From assembly GCA_035295165.1 (NCBI GenBank), contig DATGJN010000066.1:1-64000 (forward strand): DNA of 64,000 nt, read 5' to 3'. Both the position numbers and the translations under genes were made by a program. The notes beneath the pieces are model-generated. The model made no database searches and had not been told where the DNA came from. It was given only the letters and a program-made list of their open reading frames with translations. How positions within the stretch are numbered: position 1 is the first letter of the stretch; each line of letters begins with the position of its first letter. Positions 24,865 to 36,345 of this stretch are shown piece after piece. Origin of the DNA: a bacterium. Its GTDB lineage: Bacteria; Sysuimicrobiota; Sysuimicrobiia; Sysuimicrobiales; Segetimicrobiaceae.

Positions 24865-26154
24865 TCACAGGTCGCCCGCCGACCGGCGCGGTCGAGGCTG
24901 CTCCAGCGCCTTCAGGTGCCGCTTCGCCGCCTCGATGTCGCGCGTCTCAATCGCCAGCAGCACGAGCTCCTGTCGAACCAGCCTGGCATCGCGGTACCGG
25001 CCCGCCGTCTCAAACACCTGGAGGCTCTCCTCAAGGGCTGCACGCGCATCGTCTGGGCGGTTCAGCAACCGGTTGATCACCCCACGGACGCGCAGGCTGT
25101 GTCCTTGGTCCTGCGGGACCTCGTCGGGCGCGAGGAGCGCCAGCGCCGTCTCCCCCACGCTCCGCGCGCCTTCGGGGAGCGATCGGGTGAGCATCGACTC
25201 GGCCATCTCGCCGAGGACCCCTGCGGCGCCGGGCCAGTTGGCCACCGCGGACTGCAGCGCCAGGCTCCATCGGTAGTGCGCTTCCGCGGCCTCCCACCTT
25301 CCGCCGGCCGCGTCGGCTTCGCCCAGCGCCTGGTGGATGTCCGCGAGACGGCGTTTGTACCCGACGACGTGGTGCACGGCCAGCGCCTTCCCGGCGTGCT
25401 CGACCGCCTCCTCGAACCGTCCCCCTGCCGCGGCCGCGACCGCGAGGTGGCGGGCCGCCACGCGAGATGGATCCCGAAACGGTTCGACGGCGGCGAGGGC
25501 CGCCCGATACGCCCGCTCGGCGTCGTCGGTCCGCCCAAGCTGCAGATGGGCCTCGGCGAGGCCGACGTGGAGATCGGCGAGCAGCGCGGGATCTTGTGGC
25601 AGCTCGGCCGCCATCCGCAACGCCGCCTCGAACGCCCAGATCGCCGACGACGGGTCGCGGCCGTCCAGCCGCAGGAGGCCGAGCGTCGTCTGCGCCCTCG
25701 CCAACAACGTCCGGTCATCCGTGTGGCTGAGCACGTGAATGGCGCGGTTGATCCTCCTCCACGCCTGCCCGGTCTGTCCAAGATCGTGCTCGAGCGCGGC
25801 CAGGGCAAGTTCGATGCGGGCCTCGAGCGTCTCGTCCTCCTGCTGCGCGGCGAGCTCAAGCGCGCGCTCAAACGCGGCCTGCGCCTCCATTCGCGCGCCG
25901 GCATGAAGATACACGAGCCCGATCCCAAGGAACGCTTCGGACTCCTGCTCCTCGGGAACGCCGTCGAGGAAGTAGGACAGCGGCCGGTTGAGCCGGCGGG
26001 CAAGCACCCTGAGCGTCGTCACGCGCGGGGTGCGGGTTCCGCGCTCCAACTCGGAGACGTAGGACTTCGTGAACTCGTGACCGGCAAGCTGTTCCTGAGT
26101 GAGTTTCCGGGCAAGCCGAGCCGCTCGAATCTTCTCGCCGAGTGTCAAGATCAT
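24865..26154 (-). CDS. XRE-family regulator with TPR domain
   Basis: An N-terminal XRE helix-turn-helix (residues about 5-60: LGEKIRAARLARKLTQEQL, then SYVSELERG) is followed by about ten tetratricopeptide-like repeats to residue 429. This architecture is shared with peptide-responsive RRNPP regulators (PlcR, Rgg) and with uncharacterised environmental regulators. The TPR part would bind a peptide or protein. No small peptide gene is evident next door. AGGAGG precedes the ATG. It is convergent with the CsgG-like gene, and its upstream region (26155-26469) is AT-rich. Confidence 0.85.
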   Translation of the reverse strand: MILTLGEKIRAARLARKLTQEQLAGHEFTKSYVSELERGTRTPRVTTLRVLARRLNRPLSYFLDGVPEEQESEAFLGIGLVYLHAGARMEAQAAFERALELAAQQEDETLEARIELALAALEHDLGQTGQAWRRINRAIHVLSHTDDRTLLARAQTTLGLLRLDGRDPSSAIWAFEAALRMAAELPQDPALLADLHVGLAEAHLQLGRTDDAERAYRAALAAVEPFRDPSRVAARHLAVAAAAGGRFEEAVEHAGKALAVHHVVGYKRRLADIHQALGEADAAGGRWEAAEAHYRWSLALQSAVANWPGAAGVLGEMAESMLTRSLPEGARSVGETALALLAPDEVPQDQGHSLRVRGVINRLLNRPDDARAALEESLQVFETAGRYRDARLVRQELVLLAIETRDIEAAKRHLKALEQPRPRRSAGDL

Positions 26155-26469: not shown

Positions 26470-27309
26470 CTATTCCTTCTTGGCCACCGGGTTCTCGGGA
26501 TACGAGCACCAGTCGCTCCAACTGCCTGCATACAGCACGGCGTTTCCGATCCCGACCTCATCCATCGCCAGCAGATTCGGACACGCCGAGACACCCGATC
26601 CGCAGTACACGATCGGCTGCTCCGATCCGATCGCCGCAAACCGCTCCCGCAGGACATCGATCGGCTTCAGCATCCCGCGGTCGTCTTGGTTCTCCGTCCA
26701 CGGCAGATTGACGGCCCCCGGGATGTGACCCGCGACGGGGTCGAGAGGCTCCACCTCGCCCCGATACCGCTCCGGCGCGCGCGAGTCGACCAGGCAAACG
26801 TCACGACGGCCGAGACGGCGGCGTACTCCCTCCATGTCCACGAGCATCTCTGCGCGCACGCGCGGCGCGAAGACGCGTTGGGCGACCGGGCACACCTCGG
26901 CGGTGGTGGGATGGCCCGCGAGCCGCCACGCGGACCAGCCGCCGTCGAGCACCCTGACGGCGTCGTGCCCAAGGTAGCGAAGCATCCACCAGAGCCTGGC
27001 GGCCATGCAGTTGTTCTGGGCATCGTACGCGATCACGGTCGTGCTCCCGTCGATGCCGTTGCGTCCGAACAGCCGCGCGAGCGACTCGATCGCCGGGAGA
27101 GGATGGCGTCCTCCGTGGGCGGCCTTCGGGGCCGACAGGTCGGTGTCGAGGTCGAGATACACGGCCCCGGGGATATGCTCTCGCATGTACCCGGTCCGGC
27201 CGGCGTCGGGGTTTGCGAGGTCGAACCGGCAGTCCGCGATCACGATCGCCGGATCACCGAGCCGACCGGCCAACCAGTCCGCAGTCACGAGGTTAGTGCT
27301 CCCGCGCAT
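26470..27309 (-). CDS. Thiosulfate/3-mercaptopyruvate sulfurtransferase (tandem rhodanese)
   Basis: This 279-residue protein has two rhodanese domains. The N-terminal, inactive one starts LVTADWLAGRLGDPAIVIAD, and the C-terminal one has the active cysteine in VYCGSGVSAC (about C236). The CGSGVSA loop resembles 3-mercaptopyruvate sulfurtransferases and related thiosulfate enzymes. It moves sulfane sulfur to a thiol or cyanide acceptor, in cytoplasm or periplasm; no signal peptide is seen. The start at 27309 is fixed by AGGAGG 7 bases upstream. Confidence 0.92.
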   Translation of the reverse strand: MRGSTNLVTADWLAGRLGDPAIVIADCRFDLANPDAGRTGYMREHIPGAVYLDLDTDLSAPKAAHGGRHPLPAIESLARLFGRNGIDGSTTVIAYDAQNNCMAARLWWMLRYLGHDAVRVLDGGWSAWRLAGHPTTAEVCPVAQRVFAPRVRAEMLVDMEGVRRRLGRRDVCLVDSRAPERYRGEVEPLDPVAGHIPGAVNLPWTENQDDRGMLKPIDVLRERFAAIGSEQPIVYCGSGVSACPNLLAMDEVGIGNAVLYAGSWSDWCSYPENPVAKKE

Positions 27310-27586
27310 GTCAGCGCCTCCTTGCGATCCACTCCGCCCGCTGCGCACGTCTGATCCGAGACACTATGATACTTCAACGCACACAGGCGCGTCCCATGCG
27401 CTGCTTGGCTGATCGTCCCGTTGGCAGAGTGAATTGCGCGAGTTTGCGACGTGGCTTGCTCCGACGGTCGGACGTCGGTAGGATGTCGGCATAGGCACGA
27501 TGTACTCGACTGAACGCCGACAGGCTGATGGCACCGTTCATCCGCGCTCGCAGGTGGCCCGATCAGGACTTACCGGGGAGACGCGC

Positions 27587-27841
27587 ATGTTGTTTGACAA
27601 GCTGTGGGCTCAGGTCAAGGGGGCCGAACGCTCCGGCAAACTGACCGTCGAAGAAGCTCTCGACTGCGCGACGCGCCTGCCCCAGGCCCTCTTCTGTTCC
27701 ATGATGGAATGCCTCGCCGAAAACGGCGAGGACCCTCAGGTCATCGTCACGCAGGTCGCCCGCCTGCACGAGCACATGTTGAAGCGGCTCCGCGAGGTCG
27801 CGACCAAGCTGCGGGTCAGGCCCACGGTCGGATTTCATTGA
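27587..27841 (+). CDS. Small helical protein, unknown function
   Basis: This 84-residue protein begins MLFDKLWAQVKGAERSGK and is predicted mostly helical by its residue pattern, with a basic C-terminus. GGGGAG lies 6 bases before the ATG. I recognise no family. It precedes the DNA-binding-like gene at 27958 by 116 bases in the same direction, so it may belong to the same transcription unit. Confidence 0.65.
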   Translation: MLFDKLWAQVKGAERSGKLTVEEALDCATRLPQALFCSMMECLAENGEDPQVIVTQVARLHEHMLKRLREVATKLRVRPTVGFH

Positions 27842-27957
27842 TCGCCGCCGCGCGATCGTATCCGCCTCGCGCGTCCCCCCGGTGTCGCTTGGATGTGGGG
27901 GCGTTCGGAATGACATATGTTATGATGGGTGTACTCTCACACCAAGGAGCGCCGCCG

Positions 27958-28338
27958 ATGCGAGGGAAGGCGCGGGACGGCCGAGGCGATCGGCCGGGCG
28001 GGGACACGCGGGCCCGTGGCGAGGCGAAGATGGGCATCCACGTTCCCAAAGAACTGCACCGCCGGTTTCGGGCGCGTCTGATTCTCGAAGGACGGCAGAT
28101 GCAGGATGTCATCCGCACCTGGGTGGACGATGAGGTAGCATCGCACCGGACGCGCCCGCCCGCGACAGGCGGGCTTCGCTTCTTCAAGGGCGTCGATCGA
28201 AACATGCTGGCCGCAATCGCGGTCCCGCTCGAACTGGACAAGATCCGCCGGCTCAAGAGCAAGCTGCTCATGGAGGGACGCAACATCTCGCAGTGGGGCA
28301 CCGAACGCATGGAGCAGTTCCTGAAGGAACGGGGATGA
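27958..28338 (+). CDS. Basic helical protein with ribbon-helix-helix-like segment
   Basis: This 126-residue protein has a disordered basic N-terminus, then MGIHVPKELHRRFRARLILE, a pattern seen in ribbon-helix-helix proteins (short strand followed by helix), and EGRQMQDVIRTWVDDEV. A second similar half follows: IAVPLELDKIRRLKSKLLME then EGRNISQWGTERM. So it may hold two tandem RHH-like units and bind DNA by itself. AAGGAG 8 bases upstream fixes the start. It overlaps the next gene by ATGA and heads the four-gene set with the SpoIIIAA-like ATPase, so it is either its regulator or a DNA-binding subunit. Confidence 0.7.
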   Translation: MRGKARDGRGDRPGGDTRARGEAKMGIHVPKELHRRFRARLILEGRQMQDVIRTWVDDEVASHRTRPPATGGLRFFKGVDRNMLAAIAVPLELDKIRRLKSKLLMEGRNISQWGTERMEQFLKERG

Positions 28339-29411
28339 AGCCGCACGGCGCCGCCAGGGGTGCGGCGTTGGCGCTGGGGCTAGCGCTCGCCGCGACCGCA
28401 GCAACCGCAGGCCCTCAACCTCCCCCACTGACCGTATATGCGGGCTCCGGCACGCGGACGTCGCTTCGGCTGCAACCCGGCTATGCCACCGTTCTTCGGG
28501 CCGATCGTCGGATCGACACGGTCGCCATCGGGGATCCGCGACTGGTCACCGCCACCGCAGTCAAACACGGGCAGGACGTCTACGATCTTATCTTGCAGCC
28601 GCAGGGCTCCTCCGGCGCGACCAATATGGTCGTCTGGCTCGGCAACCTGACGACCGTGTGGGACCTCGAGGTCGGCCCCGGGCTCCGGACCGCCGACCTC
28701 GTGTACGTGGTCACCGGTGCGCGGGGCGCGGCGGTGCCGCCTCCTACCGCGAGCACGACCTCGCCACCCACATCGTCCGGACGGGCGGCGCTGCCGCCAC
28801 CGGTTGCCGGGGCTCCAACCGCGGCCCCCCGCCCGTCGCCGCCGCCGGCCGCGGCCTCGGCGCCGCAATCGCGTGCGCCGGCGGGTTCGACGATCCCGAC
28901 ACCGGAGACACCGTCCGGACGCCGCCCGGGCCCGGAGGGCGCGGCCTCACCGGCCCCGGGTCCGAGTGAGCCGGCTCACCCGGACCCGATCGCAGAACGG
29001 CCCGCGGGCGCCCCGGTGCTTCAAGCGCGCCAGACCATCGGAGACGTCACCGCCGTGTTCCAGGTCGCACGGCTCCCCGACGGTGTGCTGATACGCTACC
29101 AGATCACGAATCACGGCGATGGCGATTTTGCGATCCGGCCCACGAGTGTGCTGGTGCGCGTGAACGGCAGGCTGGTCCCATACGCGCTCGCGCGCGCAAG
29201 CGCGGACCAGAGCCGGCCGGACGCGCTGCCGCACGGTGCCACGGAGACCGGCGTGATCGAGGCGCCGAACCCCGCCGCGCGGTCGGTGCAGGTGGTCCTC
29301 TCGCTCTTCCCGCTCGCGCCCGCCGACGACGCGGGCGACGCGCGCCTGCCGCTGACGTTCGAACCGTCGTTCGCCGGCGTCGACCGTCTGGCACCGACCA
29401 CGAATCTGTGA
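28335..29411 (+). CDS. Secreted protein with pilus/secretin N-terminal domain and Pro-rich linker
   Basis: A short signal peptide (ALALGLALAATAATAG) is followed by a domain like the N-terminal part of CpaC/RcpA secretins (T2SS-T3SS pil_N): TSLRLQPGYATVLRADR, then VAIGDPRLVTA and MVVWLGNLTTVWDLEV. A long Pro/Ala-rich linker (about residues 130-230) leads to a C-terminal beta domain starting IGDVTAVFQVARLPDG. No secretin pore domain is present. Its ATG overlaps the previous stop (ATGA), and its stop overlaps the ATPase GTG, so the three are coupled. It would sit in the periplasm of a diderm cell and could link an envelope machine to the ATPase. Confidence 0.75.
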   Translation: MKPHGAARGAALALGLALAATAATAGPQPPPLTVYAGSGTRTSLRLQPGYATVLRADRRIDTVAIGDPRLVTATAVKHGQDVYDLILQPQGSSGATNMVVWLGNLTTVWDLEVGPGLRTADLVYVVTGARGAAVPPPTASTTSPPTSSGRAALPPPVAGAPTAAPRPSPPPAAASAPQSRAPAGSTIPTPETPSGRRPGPEGAASPAPGPSEPAHPDPIAERPAGAPVLQARQTIGDVTAVFQVARLPDGVLIRYQITNHGDGDFAIRPTSVLVRVNGRLVPYALARASADQSRPDALPHGATETGVIEAPNPAARSVQVVLSLFPLAPADDAGDARLPLTFEPSFAGVDRLAPTTNL

Positions 29412-30454
29412 CTCCCGAACCTCCCGGCGGAGAGATCGAATCGCTGCTCGCGATCGTCCCTCCATGGATCGTCGCGCAGATCGCCCCACGTGACACCGAG
29501 GCGCTCGAAGAGCTCGTCGTGGATCTCGGACGGCCTCCGCGGGCGCGCCTCCGAACAGGCTGCCGCGAGGTGACGCTCTCCGGCGAAGTTGGCTACGACG
29601 ATCTGCAGTACATCCTCGGACGCGTCACGCGGTTCCGCGACGACAACCGGACGGGCGTCGAGCGGACGCTGCACCGGATCGCATGCATTCGGGACCGGTA
29701 TCACGAGATCGTGGGCTTTACGTTTCGGGCCGGACGCACGGTCGCCGGCGCGGCGCGCCCGATCGCCGACCTGCTGGCGGCCCGCCGGAGCCTCCTCGTG
29801 GTCGGCGGGCCCGGCGCCGGCAAGACCACGCTGCTGAGAAGTGCCGCGGCGATGCTGGCCGGCGACCTCGGCCGGAGAACGATGATCGCCGACACCAGCA
29901 ACGAGATCGGCGGAGACGGCCAGATCCCGCACCCCGCGATCGGCGGCGCACGCCGCCTGCAGATTCCGCTGCCCGACTCCGCGCAGGCGGGCGTCGCGGA
30001 CGCGCTGCAGGCGCGCGTGTTGCTGCAGGCGGTCGTCAACCACGGGGCTGAAGCGATCGTCGTGGACGAGATCGGGTTCGAAGCGGAGGCCCGGGTGATC
30101 CGCACGATCGCGCGGCGTGGCGTGCAGCTCGTCGCCACCGCGCACGGACGCCACCTTCGCGACGTCGTGTTCAACCCCGACCTCGCCGGTCTCGTGGGCA
30201 GCCCCCGGCCGGTGACCCTGTCGCCGGAGGAAGCCGCCGCGCGGGGATCCGAACGGCACACCGCGCTGGAACGCTCGGAGCCGCCCGCGTTCGAGTGCGT
30301 CGTGGAGGTCTCGCGCCGAGACCTCCTCGTGATTCACACGGATGTGGCCCGGTCGGTGGATCTCATCCTGGCCGGACTGGCGCCGAAGGTCGCGGTGCGG
30401 CGGTGCGGTTCCGCGGACGGGGTCCCCAGGGGACGGGACGAACCCGTCCAATAG
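29408..30454 (+). CDS. SpoIIIAA-like/Ycf45-type AAA ATPase
   Basis: This 348-residue cytoplasmic P-loop ATPase resembles stage III sporulation protein AA and the Ycf45 group. The N-terminal domain has EVTLSGEVGYDDLQYILGRV. Walker A is GGPGAGKTT at about 133-141, and Walker B is AIVVDEIG near 217, followed by the sensor region LVATAHGR. The C-terminal part FECVVEVSRRDLLVIH matches the tail seen in non-sporulating members; no clear R3H motif remains. The GTG start overlaps the upstream stop (GTGA). In a diderm without visible spore genes this is probably an envelope or nucleic-acid-associated motor rather than a sporulation protein. Confidence 0.85.
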   Translation: MTPEPPGGEIESLLAIVPPWIVAQIAPRDTEALEELVVDLGRPPRARLRTGCREVTLSGEVGYDDLQYILGRVTRFRDDNRTGVERTLHRIACIRDRYHEIVGFTFRAGRTVAGAARPIADLLAARRSLLVVGGPGAGKTTLLRSAAAMLAGDLGRRTMIADTSNEIGGDGQIPHPAIGGARRLQIPLPDSAQAGVADALQARVLLQAVVNHGAEAIVVDEIGFEAEARVIRTIARRGVQLVATAHGRHLRDVVFNPDLAGLVGSPRPVTLSPEEAAARGSERHTALERSEPPAFECVVEVSRRDLLVIHTDVARSVDLILAGLAPKVAVRRCGSADGVPRGRDEPVQ

Positions 30455-30462
30455 TGCTGGCT

Positions 30463-30690
30463 GTGGAACGCGGCACCGTGAAGTGGTTCGACAGCCGGAT
30501 GGGCTACGGCTTCGTGCTCGACGCCGAGGGACGCGACGTCTTCGTCCACCGCCGCGTCGTCAGGCGCGCCGGACGCCGCCGGCTCGAGCCGGGCGAGCCT
30601 GTCGAATACGAGGCGGAGCAGACCCCGCGCGGCGTGAAGATCACCCGACTGGTGGTACTCGCATCCGCGGTCCCTGACCAGGAGCGTTGA
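30463..30690 (+). CDS. Cold-shock-domain protein
   Basis: This OB-fold protein of about 75 residues carries both RNA-binding motifs: RNP1-like MGYGFV and RNP2-like VFVHRR, starting ERGTVKWFDSR. A basic stretch (RRAGRRRLEPGE) replaces the usual acidic loop. A GTG at 30463 gives the standard N-terminus; a GTG at 30454 that overlaps the ATPase stop is also possible. Such proteins melt RNA or single-stranded DNA structures. Linkage to the ATPase gene is notable. Confidence 0.85.
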   Translation: MERGTVKWFDSRMGYGFVLDAEGRDVFVHRRVVRRAGRRRLEPGEPVEYEAEQTPRGVKITRLVVLASAVPDQER

Positions 30691-31295: not shown

Positions 31296-31787
31296 TCAGT
31301 GTCGATTGTCGCCCGGCGCGTTGTCGGGACCGTCTTGGTGCCAGTCCCGCCGGGGCGCCCACGAAGGATCGCCGCCGCCACCGGAAGCAGGCGAGGACAC
31401 CGACGCGCCCCCGTGCGACTGCGACAGCACTTGGGGAAGGTTCAGCAGGATGTTCGCGATGTTGGCGATCTGACCCAACCCCTGGCCGATACCGGCCTGC
31501 CCGAGCCCCGGCGAAGCCGGCGCGGCGGCCGCAGGACGCGGGGCGGTGCGGACCACTCGATCCCCGACCGAGCGGGGAGCGGCGGCATGGTGCGCGATCG
31601 GCGCCGCCACGCGCGCCACCGGCGCCTTGACGGGCGCAGGCGGCGGGGGCGGATCGGCGATCACCGACACCGCCGGGGTCGCCTGCGAGGGACGCACGCC
31701 GAGCATCGCAAGCCCCGTCGGCGTCATCGCCGCCGTGACCGCGAGCACGGTCAGGATCCCAAGGCCCACCGTCAGTGATTTCATCAT
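31296..31787 (-). CDS. Secreted or anchored Ala/Pro-rich hypothetical protein
   Basis: This protein of about 163 residues starts MMKSLTVGLGILTVLAVTAA, a signal peptide or membrane anchor. A Pro/Ala-rich low-complexity region follows, then a short conserved-looking helix (GLGQIANIANILLNLPQVLS) and a Gly/Ser-rich, acidic-basic tail. No known domain is recognised. A hairpin follows its stop. Confidence 0.6.
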   Translation of the reverse strand: MMKSLTVGLGILTVLAVTAAMTPTGLAMLGVRPSQATPAVSVIADPPPPPAPVKAPVARVAAPIAHHAAAPRSVGDRVVRTAPRPAAAAPASPGLGQAGIGQGLGQIANIANILLNLPQVLSQSHGGASVSSPASGGGGDPSWAPRRDWHQDGPDNAPGDNRH

Positions 31788-31871
31788 GGCACGGTCACCC
31801 AGAAACGATCTACCCCTCTCCCCTTCCATTGTAACGCCGCGAGAATGGGGAGAGTTCCCCCGGGGCGAGCG

Positions 31872-32968: not shown

Positions 32969-33529
32969 ATGAAGCCTGCAGGACCACAACGCCGCGACGC
33001 AGCCTGGCTCGGTACGCTCCCGTACGCGCTCATCGCGGCGGGCGCCGTGCTCAGGATCGTGCCGCACCCGTGGAACTTCGCGCCGATCGATGCCCTGGCG
33101 CTGTTCGGCGGTGCCGTGCTTCCCGGGGCGCTCGGCCTGGCGGTCCCCTTGGCCGCCCTCGTGTTGTCCGACGCGGTGCTGGGCTTCTACCCGGGGATCG
33201 GCTGGGTGTACGGGAGCTATGTGCTGATCGCGCTGCTCGGACGCGCGCTGCGGGGGCGCCGTCCCGCGGGGCGGGTCGTCGCGTTCTCGGTCGCGGCCTC
33301 GGTCATCTTCTATGTTGTGACCAACTTCGGCGAGTGGCTGGGACCGCTGTATCCGCATACGCCCGCCGGGCTCGTGGCGTCGTACGTCGCCGCGATCCCG
33401 TTCTTCCGCAACACCGTGCTCAGTGACGTGGGCTACTCGCTCGCGCTCTTCGCCATCTACGGGCACGCGGCCAGATTCGCCGAACGCCGCGCCGGCCGGC
33501 TCGAGCCCGCCGCTCAGCGCACCACGTAG
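32969..33529 (+). CDS. DUF6580-family membrane protein, candidate B12 transport component
   Basis: This inner-membrane protein of 186 residues has about five hydrophobic segments and the blocks that mark DUF6580: VLRIVPHPWNFAPIDALALF at the N-terminus, the SDAVLGFYP loop, VTNFGEWLGPLYPHT, and AAIPFFRNTVLSDVGYS. The layout resembles substrate-binding (S) components of ECF vitamin transporters. Its gene is convergent with tonB (16-base overlap) at a riboswitch-controlled B12 receptor locus, so a role in carrying corrinoid across the inner membrane is a reasonable inference. No energising ATPase is next to it. GGGAG precedes the ATG. Confidence 0.75.
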   Translation: MKPAGPQRRDAAWLGTLPYALIAAGAVLRIVPHPWNFAPIDALALFGGAVLPGALGLAVPLAALVLSDAVLGFYPGIGWVYGSYVLIALLGRALRGRRPAGRVVAFSVAASVIFYVVTNFGEWLGPLYPHTPAGLVASYVAAIPFFRNTVLSDVGYSLALFAIYGHAARFAERRAGRLEPAAQRTT

Positions 33530-34422
33530 CGTATCCGCAGCGTCACGTACGCGTCGATCGGCGCGCCGTCGCGCGTCGCCGGCGCAAACTGCCATCCGCG
33601 AACCGCCTCGATCGCGGACCGGTCGAGGACCCCAGCGCCCGAGGACTCCACGGCGTCGACCTCCCGCACCGTGCCGTCGGCAAGCACGAGCACGCGAAGC
33701 GCCACCGTCCCCTCCGTCCCTACGACCGAAAGCGCCGCTCCGAGATCCTGCCGCCGCACCGTGAACCGGAAGGCGTCCCCGGGATACGCCATCGTCCCGG
33801 TCGAGATCACCCGCGGAGGGGTGAGGATCGGCGCGCGTGCGGCGGGACGGCTCGCATCCTCCCGCGCGCCGGCCGAAGCGGATCCGGTCGCGCTCACGCC
33901 GGTTCCGCTCCCGGTCCCTTCCGCTCCGCCCGCAGCCCCGGAGCCGGACGATCCCGGGGCTCCCGACTGGGCCGTTGAGTTCGCCACCGGGCCGGCGGCT
34001 GGTTGGGACGGGGCGCGCGCGCCCCCGGAACCTCCGGAGTCCGGCGGAGTCGCCTGACGTGCGGTCTGCGGCGCGGACGGCTGCCCCCGCGCCCCGACCG
34101 GTGGGGTCGGCTGCGTGGAACGCACGGTCCCGTGTTGCTCCGCGGGCCGACGCGAGCCCGCCGGGCGCGTCGGTGCGGACACGGACGGGCGGCGGATTAC
34201 CTCCTTGACCTGACGCGGCGAGGACGCCGTCGCCTTGCCCGCCGCCGGACGGTCGCCCTCCTGTTGCGCGGTCGGCCCGGGCGCATCGCTCGAGGTCCGG
34301 GGGACCGGTGTTGCGCCCGTGAAAGGCAGGATCGGGACGCCAGCGTGCCGCCACACCGCAGCACCCGCTCCAGCCGCGAGCGCCGCGGCGAGGGCGGCCG
34401 CGATCACGGGGCCGCTGCGCAC
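33514..34422 (-). CDS. tonB: TonB-like energy transducer
   Basis: One N-terminal transmembrane helix (PVIAAALAAALAAGAGAAVW) is followed by a very long Pro/Ala/Ser-rich periplasmic spacer. The C-terminal TonB domain starts near residue 215 and has VALRVLVLADGTVREVDAVE and the conserved ending RGWQFAPATRDGAPIDAYV. It transmits proton-motive energy to outer-membrane receptors. The GTG at 34422 (GGGATGG site) puts the helix at the N-terminus and starts 26 bases after the receptor stop, so both come from the riboswitch-controlled transcript. ExbB and ExbD are not in the window. Confidence 0.85.
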   Translation of the reverse strand: MRSGPVIAAALAAALAAGAGAAVWRHAGVPILPFTGATPVPRTSSDAPGPTAQQEGDRPAAGKATASSPRQVKEVIRRPSVSAPTRPAGSRRPAEQHGTVRSTQPTPPVGARGQPSAPQTARQATPPDSGGSGGARAPSQPAAGPVANSTAQSGAPGSSGSGAAGGAEGTGSGTGVSATGSASAGAREDASRPAARAPILTPPRVISTGTMAYPGDAFRFTVRRQDLGAALSVVGTEGTVALRVLVLADGTVREVDAVESSGAGVLDRSAIEAVRGWQFAPATRDGAPIDAYVTLRIRYVVR

Positions 34423-34447
34423 AGATCCATCCCGACGGGGCTCATCG

Positions 34448-36310
34448 TCAGAAGCTCTTCGTGGCGCCGATGAAGTAGGTCGTGCCGGGTTCCGGGAAGC
34501 CGAGCGTCGTCTGGTACGGAACATTGAACAGGTTGGCGACACCGCCCTGCAGCGCGAACCCGTTGCCGAGCTGCTGCGTGACGGTGAGCGAGGTCAGCCA
34601 GTATCCGGGAACCAGCTGCGTGTTCGCCGGGTCGTTGAACCGATCGCCGACGTAACTAAGGATGACGTTCACGCGCGTCGCCGGAGAAGCGGCGTAGGTC
34701 ACCTCGAGGTTGGCCAGCTGACGCGGCGCGTACACAACGTCGAGGTTCGTGTTCGCGTCCCGGGCGTCCTGGTCGGTGTAGTTCGCCCGGATGAACCACT
34801 GGTCGCTGATCCGGCCGACGAGTTCGATCGAGCCGCCGGAGACGATCGCGTGGCCGACGTTCATCGGCGCGAAATTGGGCGGCGCGGACGTGATCAGGTT
34901 CGTGGCGTCCGTGTAGTATCCGGTCACGGCGAGCGTGAGCCCCGGCGCAAGCGTGTACGCCACTCCCGCGTCGTACGACGACGCCGTCTCGGGCTGCAGG
35001 TTGGGGTTGCCGCCGAAGGAGGGCGCGAGTTCGTCGAAGCTCGGCGCCCGAAACGACCGGCCGGCCCCCACCCGCAGCGCCAGCCGGTCGCTCAACAGCA
35101 CGACGACGCCGGCCCGCGGATCCACCTGCGTGCCGTAGAGTTGAAAGACGTCCCCGCGGACGCCCGCCGACAGCAGGACGCGCGGGCCGATCTGCCAATC
35201 GTCCTGCACGTACAGCCCGAGGTCTGTGTCGGTGTTCCCGAACGCGGTCGGGAAGTTGTCGGTATGCGCCGTGGCCTGCCCCTGGTAGTCGGCGCCGAGC
35301 GTGAGGAGATGGCCCGGCAGCGGCGCGAGCACGACCTGCGCCTGCGCGCCCCACACATGGGCCACGTCGTCCGACCGAAACGCGAAGGGGGTGAAGACGC
35401 CGCCGAGGCTCGGCGAGATGAACGAGATGTCGTCGTCGAGCGTGTAGACCCGAAGGAGGGTGCCCGGACCGTCCGCCTTGCCGCTGTGCCACGCGAGGTC
35501 GACGAGCGTCCGCCCTTCGAGCGTACGCGCGTTCGGGTCCTGGGTACTCGCCGGCAGGGCGCCGGGGGTGCCGACCGCGTGCCAGAACCGGTTGACCGTG
35601 AGCGTCAGTCCGGCGTCGTCGCCCATGGTCCAGTGGAGCTTCGCCGTCACAGTCGAGTTGCTGTAGTCGTTGTCGGTGGCGAACCCCGTGCTGCCGGTGA
35701 GAATCCCCTGCACGAGATACGTGAGATTCGCGATCGCGCCGCCGGCGGAGACGACGTTCGCGCTCTCGCCGAACGATCCCACTCGTGACGACACCGACGT
35801 CTGCGGCGCCGTCCGGGTCACGATGTTGACCACGCCGCCGAGCGCGGAGCTCCCATACAGGGCCGAGAACGGGCCCCGCAAGACTTCGACGCGTTCCACG
35901 TTCTGGATCGGCAGCGTGCTGAGATCGACCGACTGCTGATCGGGCCGGTTGAGCGGGACGCCGTCCACGAGCACCAGCACCCGCGTCGACGCCTCGCCGC
36001 GGATGCTGACCGTCGTGAGCGCACCGGGCCCACCGGAGCTCTTGACAAACACTTCGGGGAGCACGCGAAGCACGTCCGCGACGGTAAGGGCGCCCATCGC
36101 GGCGATCTCGTCCGAGGTGATCACGCTGACGGACGCGGGCGTCGTGGACGGCAGCTGCGGGCGCTTCCCTGCGACCTCAATGTCGGGCAGTTGGAACGTT
36201 GGCGGTCCGGGCGGGGCCTCCTGCGCAGGCCCGCGTACGGCCGTGAGCAGCGGAATGGCAACGACCAGAAGGAGCGAACAGCCGAGCGCGCGCACATGAC
36301 GGACGAACAT
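34448..36310 (-). CDS. btuB: TonB-dependent outer-membrane receptor, BtuB-like (vitamin B12)
   Basis: This 620-residue receptor has a signal peptide (CSLLLVVAIPLLTAVRG), then a TonB box and plug domain: PASVSVITSDEIAAMGALTV, TVSIRGEASTRVLVLVDGVP and the plug end SALYGSSALGGVVNIVTR. A 22-strand barrel ends in aromatic F, as outer-membrane proteins do (FIGATKSF). The size matches BtuB. The cobalamin riboswitch and terminator directly upstream identify corrinoid as the likely ligand. ATG 36310 has a purine-rich site. The tonB gene follows in the same transcript. Confidence 0.9.
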   Translation of the reverse strand: MFVRHVRALGCSLLLVVAIPLLTAVRGPAQEAPPGPPTFQLPDIEVAGKRPQLPSTTPASVSVITSDEIAAMGALTVADVLRVLPEVFVKSSGGPGALTTVSIRGEASTRVLVLVDGVPLNRPDQQSVDLSTLPIQNVERVEVLRGPFSALYGSSALGGVVNIVTRTAPQTSVSSRVGSFGESANVVSAGGAIANLTYLVQGILTGSTGFATDNDYSNSTVTAKLHWTMGDDAGLTLTVNRFWHAVGTPGALPASTQDPNARTLEGRTLVDLAWHSGKADGPGTLLRVYTLDDDISFISPSLGGVFTPFAFRSDDVAHVWGAQAQVVLAPLPGHLLTLGADYQGQATAHTDNFPTAFGNTDTDLGLYVQDDWQIGPRVLLSAGVRGDVFQLYGTQVDPRAGVVVLLSDRLALRVGAGRSFRAPSFDELAPSFGGNPNLQPETASSYDAGVAYTLAPGLTLAVTGYYTDATNLITSAPPNFAPMNVGHAIVSGGSIELVGRISDQWFIRANYTDQDARDANTNLDVVYAPRQLANLEVTYAASPATRVNVILSYVGDRFNDPANTQLVPGYWLTSLTVTQQLGNGFALQGGVANLFNVPYQTTLGFPEPGTTYFIGATKSF

Positions 36311-36345
36311 CCCTCTTCCCCCCCGTTCGCGGCACACCCTGCAAC

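Follow-up and report, generated by a model that had tools for sequence, protein, structure and literature searches.

The window analysed here, a stretch of 64,000 nucleotides from contig DATGJN010000066.1 (assembly GCA_035295165.1; Segetimicrobiaceae, Sysuimicrobiota), carries an operon at positions 27587-30690 that very probably belongs to a type IV secretion system (T4SS) of diderm type, fixed in the chromosome and split in two in the family of the window genome. T4SSs are machines that move DNA or proteins between bacteria. Membership of the window genes in such a system is well supported. An ATPase of the SpoIIIAA/Ycf45 clade, encoded in the operon, may do the job of VirB11, and SpoIIIAA-like ATPases seem to replace VirB11 in at least two phyla. 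The system is apparently relaxase-poor, and its substrate is probably DNA.

The operon consists of five genes on the plus strand: a small 84-aa protein (27587-27841), a tandem, i.e. single-chain double, ribbon-helix-helix (RHH) DNA-binding protein (27958-28338), a secreted VirB9/TraK-like protein of the outer-membrane core (28335-29411), the SpoIIIAA/Ycf45-clade ATPase, lacking R3H and proposed as a VirB11 stand-in (29408-30454), and a cold-shock-domain protein (CSP; 30454-30690). The coupled starts reported in a preliminary description of the locus, an ATGA overlap at 28335 and a GTGA overlap at 29408, are both present in the sequence, and the CSP begins, as reported, at or just after the preceding stop, either with the GTG at 30454, which shares 1 nt with the TAG, or with the GTG at 30463, as a comparison of orthologues suggests. 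All four proteins described there were found, but position 27587, with which the region described there begins, opens not the RHH gene but the separate, conserved 84-aa frame, which is 73-92% identical in ten other loci of the family and matched no family in Pfam or in a further family-profile search of the window proteins. Pfam scores exceeded the cut-off for T2SS-T3SS_pil_N in the secreted protein (PF13629, 30.7 bits, cut-off 23) and for Spore_III_AA in the ATPase (PF19568, 28.8 bits, cut-off 27); the CSP matched PF00313 with 57 bits, likewise over the cut-off, and RHH_10 scored 20.3 bits (6.7e-4) on the RHH protein, under its cut-off of 27. The dN/dS values between the window and a genome of the same genus (G002; L033/L053) were 0.04 for the 84-aa frame, 0.08 for the RHH protein, 0.27 for the secreted protein, 0.17 for the ATPase and 0.14 for the CSP, which marks each of the five as a real gene under selection.

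The phylum Sysuimicrobiota comprises one class, one order and five families (PMC11604079), and our comparison covered 43 genomes (species) of one order. The window genome (G000) and nearly all of its relatives are fragmented drafts, in which two loci could be nearer than the contigs suggest. In two further families, represented by G015 and G017, the RHH, VirB9-like and ATPase genes, with no CSP gene found downstream of the ATPase, run on the same strand into genes of a VirB10-like protein, VirB2, VirB3 (TraL), VirB4 and a VirB5-like protein, and a VirB6-like gene is also present; family scores were 1e-13 for VirB2 (TrbC, PF04956) and 2e-33 for VirB4 (PF19044). A similar ATPase gene lies upstream of VirB10/VirB2/VirB3, again on the same strand, in G024. 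Among 41 genomes, the short ATPase of the window type and VirB4 were both present in 14 and both absent in 25, with one genome each having only one of them (Fisher p 6e-9). Because kinship, for which the test is not corrected, inflates this association, physical linkage in separate lineages (G015/G017, G024 and the Deinococcota plasmids considered below) is the stronger evidence. The window operon is thus no machine standing on its own. The preliminary description had proposed an undescribed envelope-linked or nucleic-acid-handling machine, which was right in outline, since the operon belongs to a T4SS; calling it undescribed went too far, as the relatives have it next to VirB2, VirB3, VirB4 and VirB10-like genes and the secreted protein folds like the core proteins VirB9, TraK and DotH.

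In the window genome, genes of a VirB10-like protein, a VirB2 pilin, VirB3-like, VirB4, VirB5-like and VirB6-like proteins form an operon on a separate contig (C49). It encodes a VirB4-type ATPase (G000:C49:23876-26323, PF19044 2.5e-18), a VirB2-type pilin (PF04956, 7e-11) and a VirB3-type protein with a weak TraL match (0.005). This operon, with its gene order kept, was present in the other family genomes read, where the locus includes a VirD4 coupling protein (PF02534), usually followed by an MrfA-like helicase. The earlier remark that spore, pilin and secretin-pore genes are missing thus holds at the window locus, but not for the genome, whose T4SS locus elsewhere encodes the VirB2 pilin. 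G005 has, on contig C11 (L058), an additional and divergent set of T4SS genes, which includes a SpoIIIAA-like ATPase about 8-11 kb from VirB10/VirB3/VirB4.

The window operon is kept in 11 of the 12 genomes of its family, the exception being G010, whose assembly is 64% complete. The gene order is therefore not unique to the window genome: the block of 84-aa, RHH, secreted protein, ATPase and CSP genes recurs in ten others with high identity and largely unchanged flanks, its spacings lying for the most part between 4-nt overlaps and gaps of about 30 nt. The CSP gene was found in all ten of these loci, and at this place only in the window's family. A scan of genome contigs gave only two close relatives, labelled as Bacillota metagenome-assembled genomes from Centralia. 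Searched for across phyla, the four-gene order with the CSP was found in one family only, but the combination of the ATPase with a T4SS recurs in a second phylum.

The secreted protein comprises a signal peptide, a pilus-N beta domain, a Pro-rich linker and a C-terminal beta domain. Its AlphaFold model shows two beta domains, mostly with pLDDT 70-93, joined by the linker, which is disordered. The six best matches of the model in a fold search of the PDB were all T4SS outer-membrane core complexes: the F plasmid (7spb, 1.5e-6), Dot/Icm (three matches), TrwF/VirB9 of R388 and VirB9 of X. citri. VirB9, TraK and DotH are equivalent subunits (PMC12624023). A sequence profile of the protein gave only chance matches in the PDB, and PF13629 was its sole family match in Pfam, with no secretin pore domain. 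Among the genomes of the order, full-length matches were confined to three families (f1, f5 and f7).

The order possesses two ATPases of the SpoIIIAA type, a long one (about 510 aa) in nearly all genomes and the short one found in the window, which ends at 348 aa and had no R3H match. The window ATPase belongs to the same Pfam family as SpoIIIAA, which has been described as closest to the NTPases of type II/IV secretion and in which residues of four motifs, Walker A, Walker B and the Aspartate and Histidine boxes, were mutated (PMC2703783). K139, D220/E221, E166 and H246 of the window protein, invariant in an alignment of 21 sequences, are by our own assignment the counterparts of these Walker A, Walker B, Aspartate and Histidine residues. 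The protein is far under the cut-off of the SpoIIIAA equivalog (TIGR02858, 49.9 vs 281.3 bits) and does not reach that of VirB11/T2SSE (PF00437, 12.8 vs 24.9 bits); it differs from SpoIIIAA also in its T4SS context and in that no SpoIIIAE was found in the phylum (0/43 genomes). With Ycf45/R3H ATPases it shares about 50% identity over the ATPase core, but lacks their C-terminal extension. In an unrooted tree, the long ATPases and a cyanobacterial R3H protein form one clade (100/99), from which the branch of the short ATPases is separate, these grouping on the opposite side with the ATPases of Deinococcota plasmids. The AlphaFold model of the ATPase (pLDDT 37) was not used, and its sequence profile matched only P-loop proteins in the PDB. 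Our literature search found no paper treating SpoIIIAA together with VirB11; the Ycf45 literature, among the matches listed, consisted mostly of plastid-genome reports. At two loci (L048, L049) the long ATPase gene adjoins, with names given by eye, a tmk-like gene, a gene of a small 93-109 aa protein and a holB-like (DNA polymerase III delta-prime-like) gene.

A tblastn search of plasmids with the window ATPase returned 23 records, nearly all from Thermus, Deinococcus and relatives. In the opened records with a T4SS, the ATPase gene is part of an operon of the type VirB2-VirB3-VirB4-...-ATPase, mostly with VirD4; in D. ficus, an exception, some 25 kb separate it from VirB4. A SpoIIIAA-like ATPase is encoded on every one of the 19 Deinococcota plasmids that were among the best matches of a Thermus-type VirB4. 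No such VirB4 accompanies four of the ATPase records: a Scytonema R3H protein, a partial Meiothermus match, D. taeanensis and one D. gobiensis plasmid. No ATPase of the T2SSE/VirB11 family was present in five of the eight T4SS plasmids examined, the SpoIIIAA-like ATPase itself giving a sub-threshold match in two of them; in the other three, strong T2SSE/VirB11 matches lie away from the T4SS. One of these systems, on Thermus plasmid pTA69, has been called a conjugation system, and its gene pTA69-34 was named virB11 (PMC4605624); the pTA69 record yielded no further T2SSE ATPase. The VirB10-like proteins of the two phyla are homologous (profile match E 7e-31). The Thermus and Deinococcus systems differ from that of the window in being plasmid-borne, and neither of two Thermus candidates compared matched the window's VirB9-like protein.

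Alignment indicates that the RHH protein carries a pair of units in its single chain, the C-terminal half of the G015 orthologue matching the N-terminal half of the window protein. TraY of the F plasmid likewise contains two RHH units in one chain (PMC12117103), a likeness in architecture. An SSB-like gene (recognised by eye) is located downstream of the VirD4 gene in G029 and, in G000 and G002, close to a second coupling protein. The conjugative-type coupling protein, the SSB-like genes and the TraY-like double RHH protein make DNA the likelier substrate. Relaxase PF03432 was found in 0/43 genomes and TrwC (PF08751) in 1/43, other MOB families not being searched. This lends no support to ordinary conjugation, and the system may instead serve to release DNA, to take it up or to export protein. 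The second VirD4/TraG paralogue stands near an SSB-like gene, off both T4SS loci, in at least two genomes of the family (G000:C88, L128 7779-9605 and 10821-11447; G002:C80, L127 5244-7163 and 8282-8881).

By analogy with VirB11, the SpoIIIAA-like ATPase would dock or stack on VirB4, and might power the extraction of VirB2 pilin and the opening of the channel. The envelope channel itself would be formed by the VirB9-like and VirB10-like proteins, and the VirD4 coupling ATPase may feed in the substrate, single-stranded DNA being the most likely one. Two targets are conceivable for the double RHH protein: the operon promoter, for autoregulation, or a site resembling a transfer origin, such as TraY binds in F. 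The CSP is possibly an accessory of the window's family only.

Several observations weigh against the assignment to a T4SS. The window operon and the VirB locus are unlinked in their own family, so that their shared function rests on the relatives. The window genome has no VirD4 gene beside VirB6, an MFS-like gene being found there instead (G000:C49, L070 14617-16892); its sole coupling protein is the second VirD4/TraG paralogue on C88. The VirB10 call is weak by sequence alone, TrbI matching with 0.003 in 2 of 12, and depends besides on architecture and the profile match to the Thermus protein; the VirB10-like profile had no match in the PDB. Neither VirB8 nor VirB7 was identified. In G029, which is an exception, a T4SS is present, but the short ATPase is absent and the VirB9-like protein truncated. 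The model of the VirB9-like protein is modest overall (pLDDT 62, three sequences), with low TM-scores caused by the linker. Distances of the ATPase and VirB4 are congruent (r 0.90-0.96), yet r is 0.91 between VirB4 and an unrelated gene of the neighbourhood; because this control is equally high, the signal is not specific and mostly shows vertical inheritance.

The lack of linkage in the window's family, the missing local VirD4 in G000, and the CSP and 84-aa genes, seen only in this family, could mean that the operon has left the T4SS there and taken on another role in the envelope, having gained the CSP and the 84-aa protein as partners. We consider this quite unlikely, since G000 has only one full-length VirB9-like protein and one short ATPase, leaving no second copy of either to serve the T4SS, and both loci are retained together across the family. 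That the T4SS is a mobile conjugative element and not a resident system would accord with the plasmid-borne homologues in Deinococcota and with a coupling protein and double-RHH protein typical of conjugation. The flanks, however, are conserved across the family, the trees are consistent with vertical descent, and the relaxase families searched are nearly absent, which makes a mobile element unlikely. The N domain of the secreted protein, PF13629 being the one found in pilus and secretin-type proteins, could suggest an assembly of secretin type (Tad/T2SS, CpaC-like) that works with an ATPase of the sporulation type. This is very improbable, and was already disfavoured: the pore domain is missing, the best fold matches are T4SS core proteins and not secretins, G000 has separate T2SSE-type ATPases, one of them on C28 with its own pil-N match, and spoIIIAE was not found in the order's genomes. 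A secretin/Tad link was rejected on the first two grounds, and a sporulation link, to the SpoIIIA channel, was rejected as far as SpoIIIAE (PF09546, 0/43 genomes) goes.

Upstream of the window operon, on the minus strand, an XRE-HTH and TPR protein is encoded at 24865-26154 (HTH_3 8.8e-10, TPR_12 1.9e-20). It is a divergent, conserved neighbour in the family and in G015 (L033, L034, L036, L038, L041, L042, L043) and may be the regulator of the operon. In the window genome, a rhodanese-domain gene (26470-27348) lies between the two, and the regulator gene is much nearer to the operon in G002 and G001. Downstream, the window encodes a Pro/Ala-rich, apparently exported protein (31296-31829), fast evolving and without family matches, whose position is kept in most family genomes. 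As read from the sequence, a TonB-dependent-receptor-like gene (34448-36337) and then a possible TonB-like gene (33514-34542) are also present and suggest that the lineage has an outer membrane.

Among known systems, the F-like and minimised T4SSs (VirB / TraB-K-V) have in common with that of the window the VirB2 pilin, TraL/VirB3, TraC/VirB4, a VirB10-like protein, the VirB9/TraK-like fold and VirD4. They differ in that the window system has a SpoIIIAA-like ATPase at the place of VirB11, which F lacks altogether (PMC12624023), is divided between two chromosomal loci in the window's family and is without a PF03432 relaxase. It is possible, although we put this forward only tentatively, that these systems, which span at least two phyla, represent a distinct T4SS class defined by a SpoIIIAA/Ycf45-clade ATPase replacing VirB11, and that the version of the soil lineage is resident, has no relaxase and does housekeeping work in exchanging DNA or taking it up.

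The findings tie SpoIIIAA and Ycf45, two families of ATPases whose mechanism is poorly understood, to a machine that has been studied well. Should the ATPase be a working substitute for VirB11, SpoIIIAA of the sporulation channel and Ycf45 of cyanobacteria and plastids would become approachable by T4SS assays, such as VirB4 docking and pilus assembly. In two phyla, the ATPase also provides a marker for T4SSs that would escape VirB11-based searches, and the findings suggest that an uncultured soil lineage has a resident system for transferring DNA or protein.

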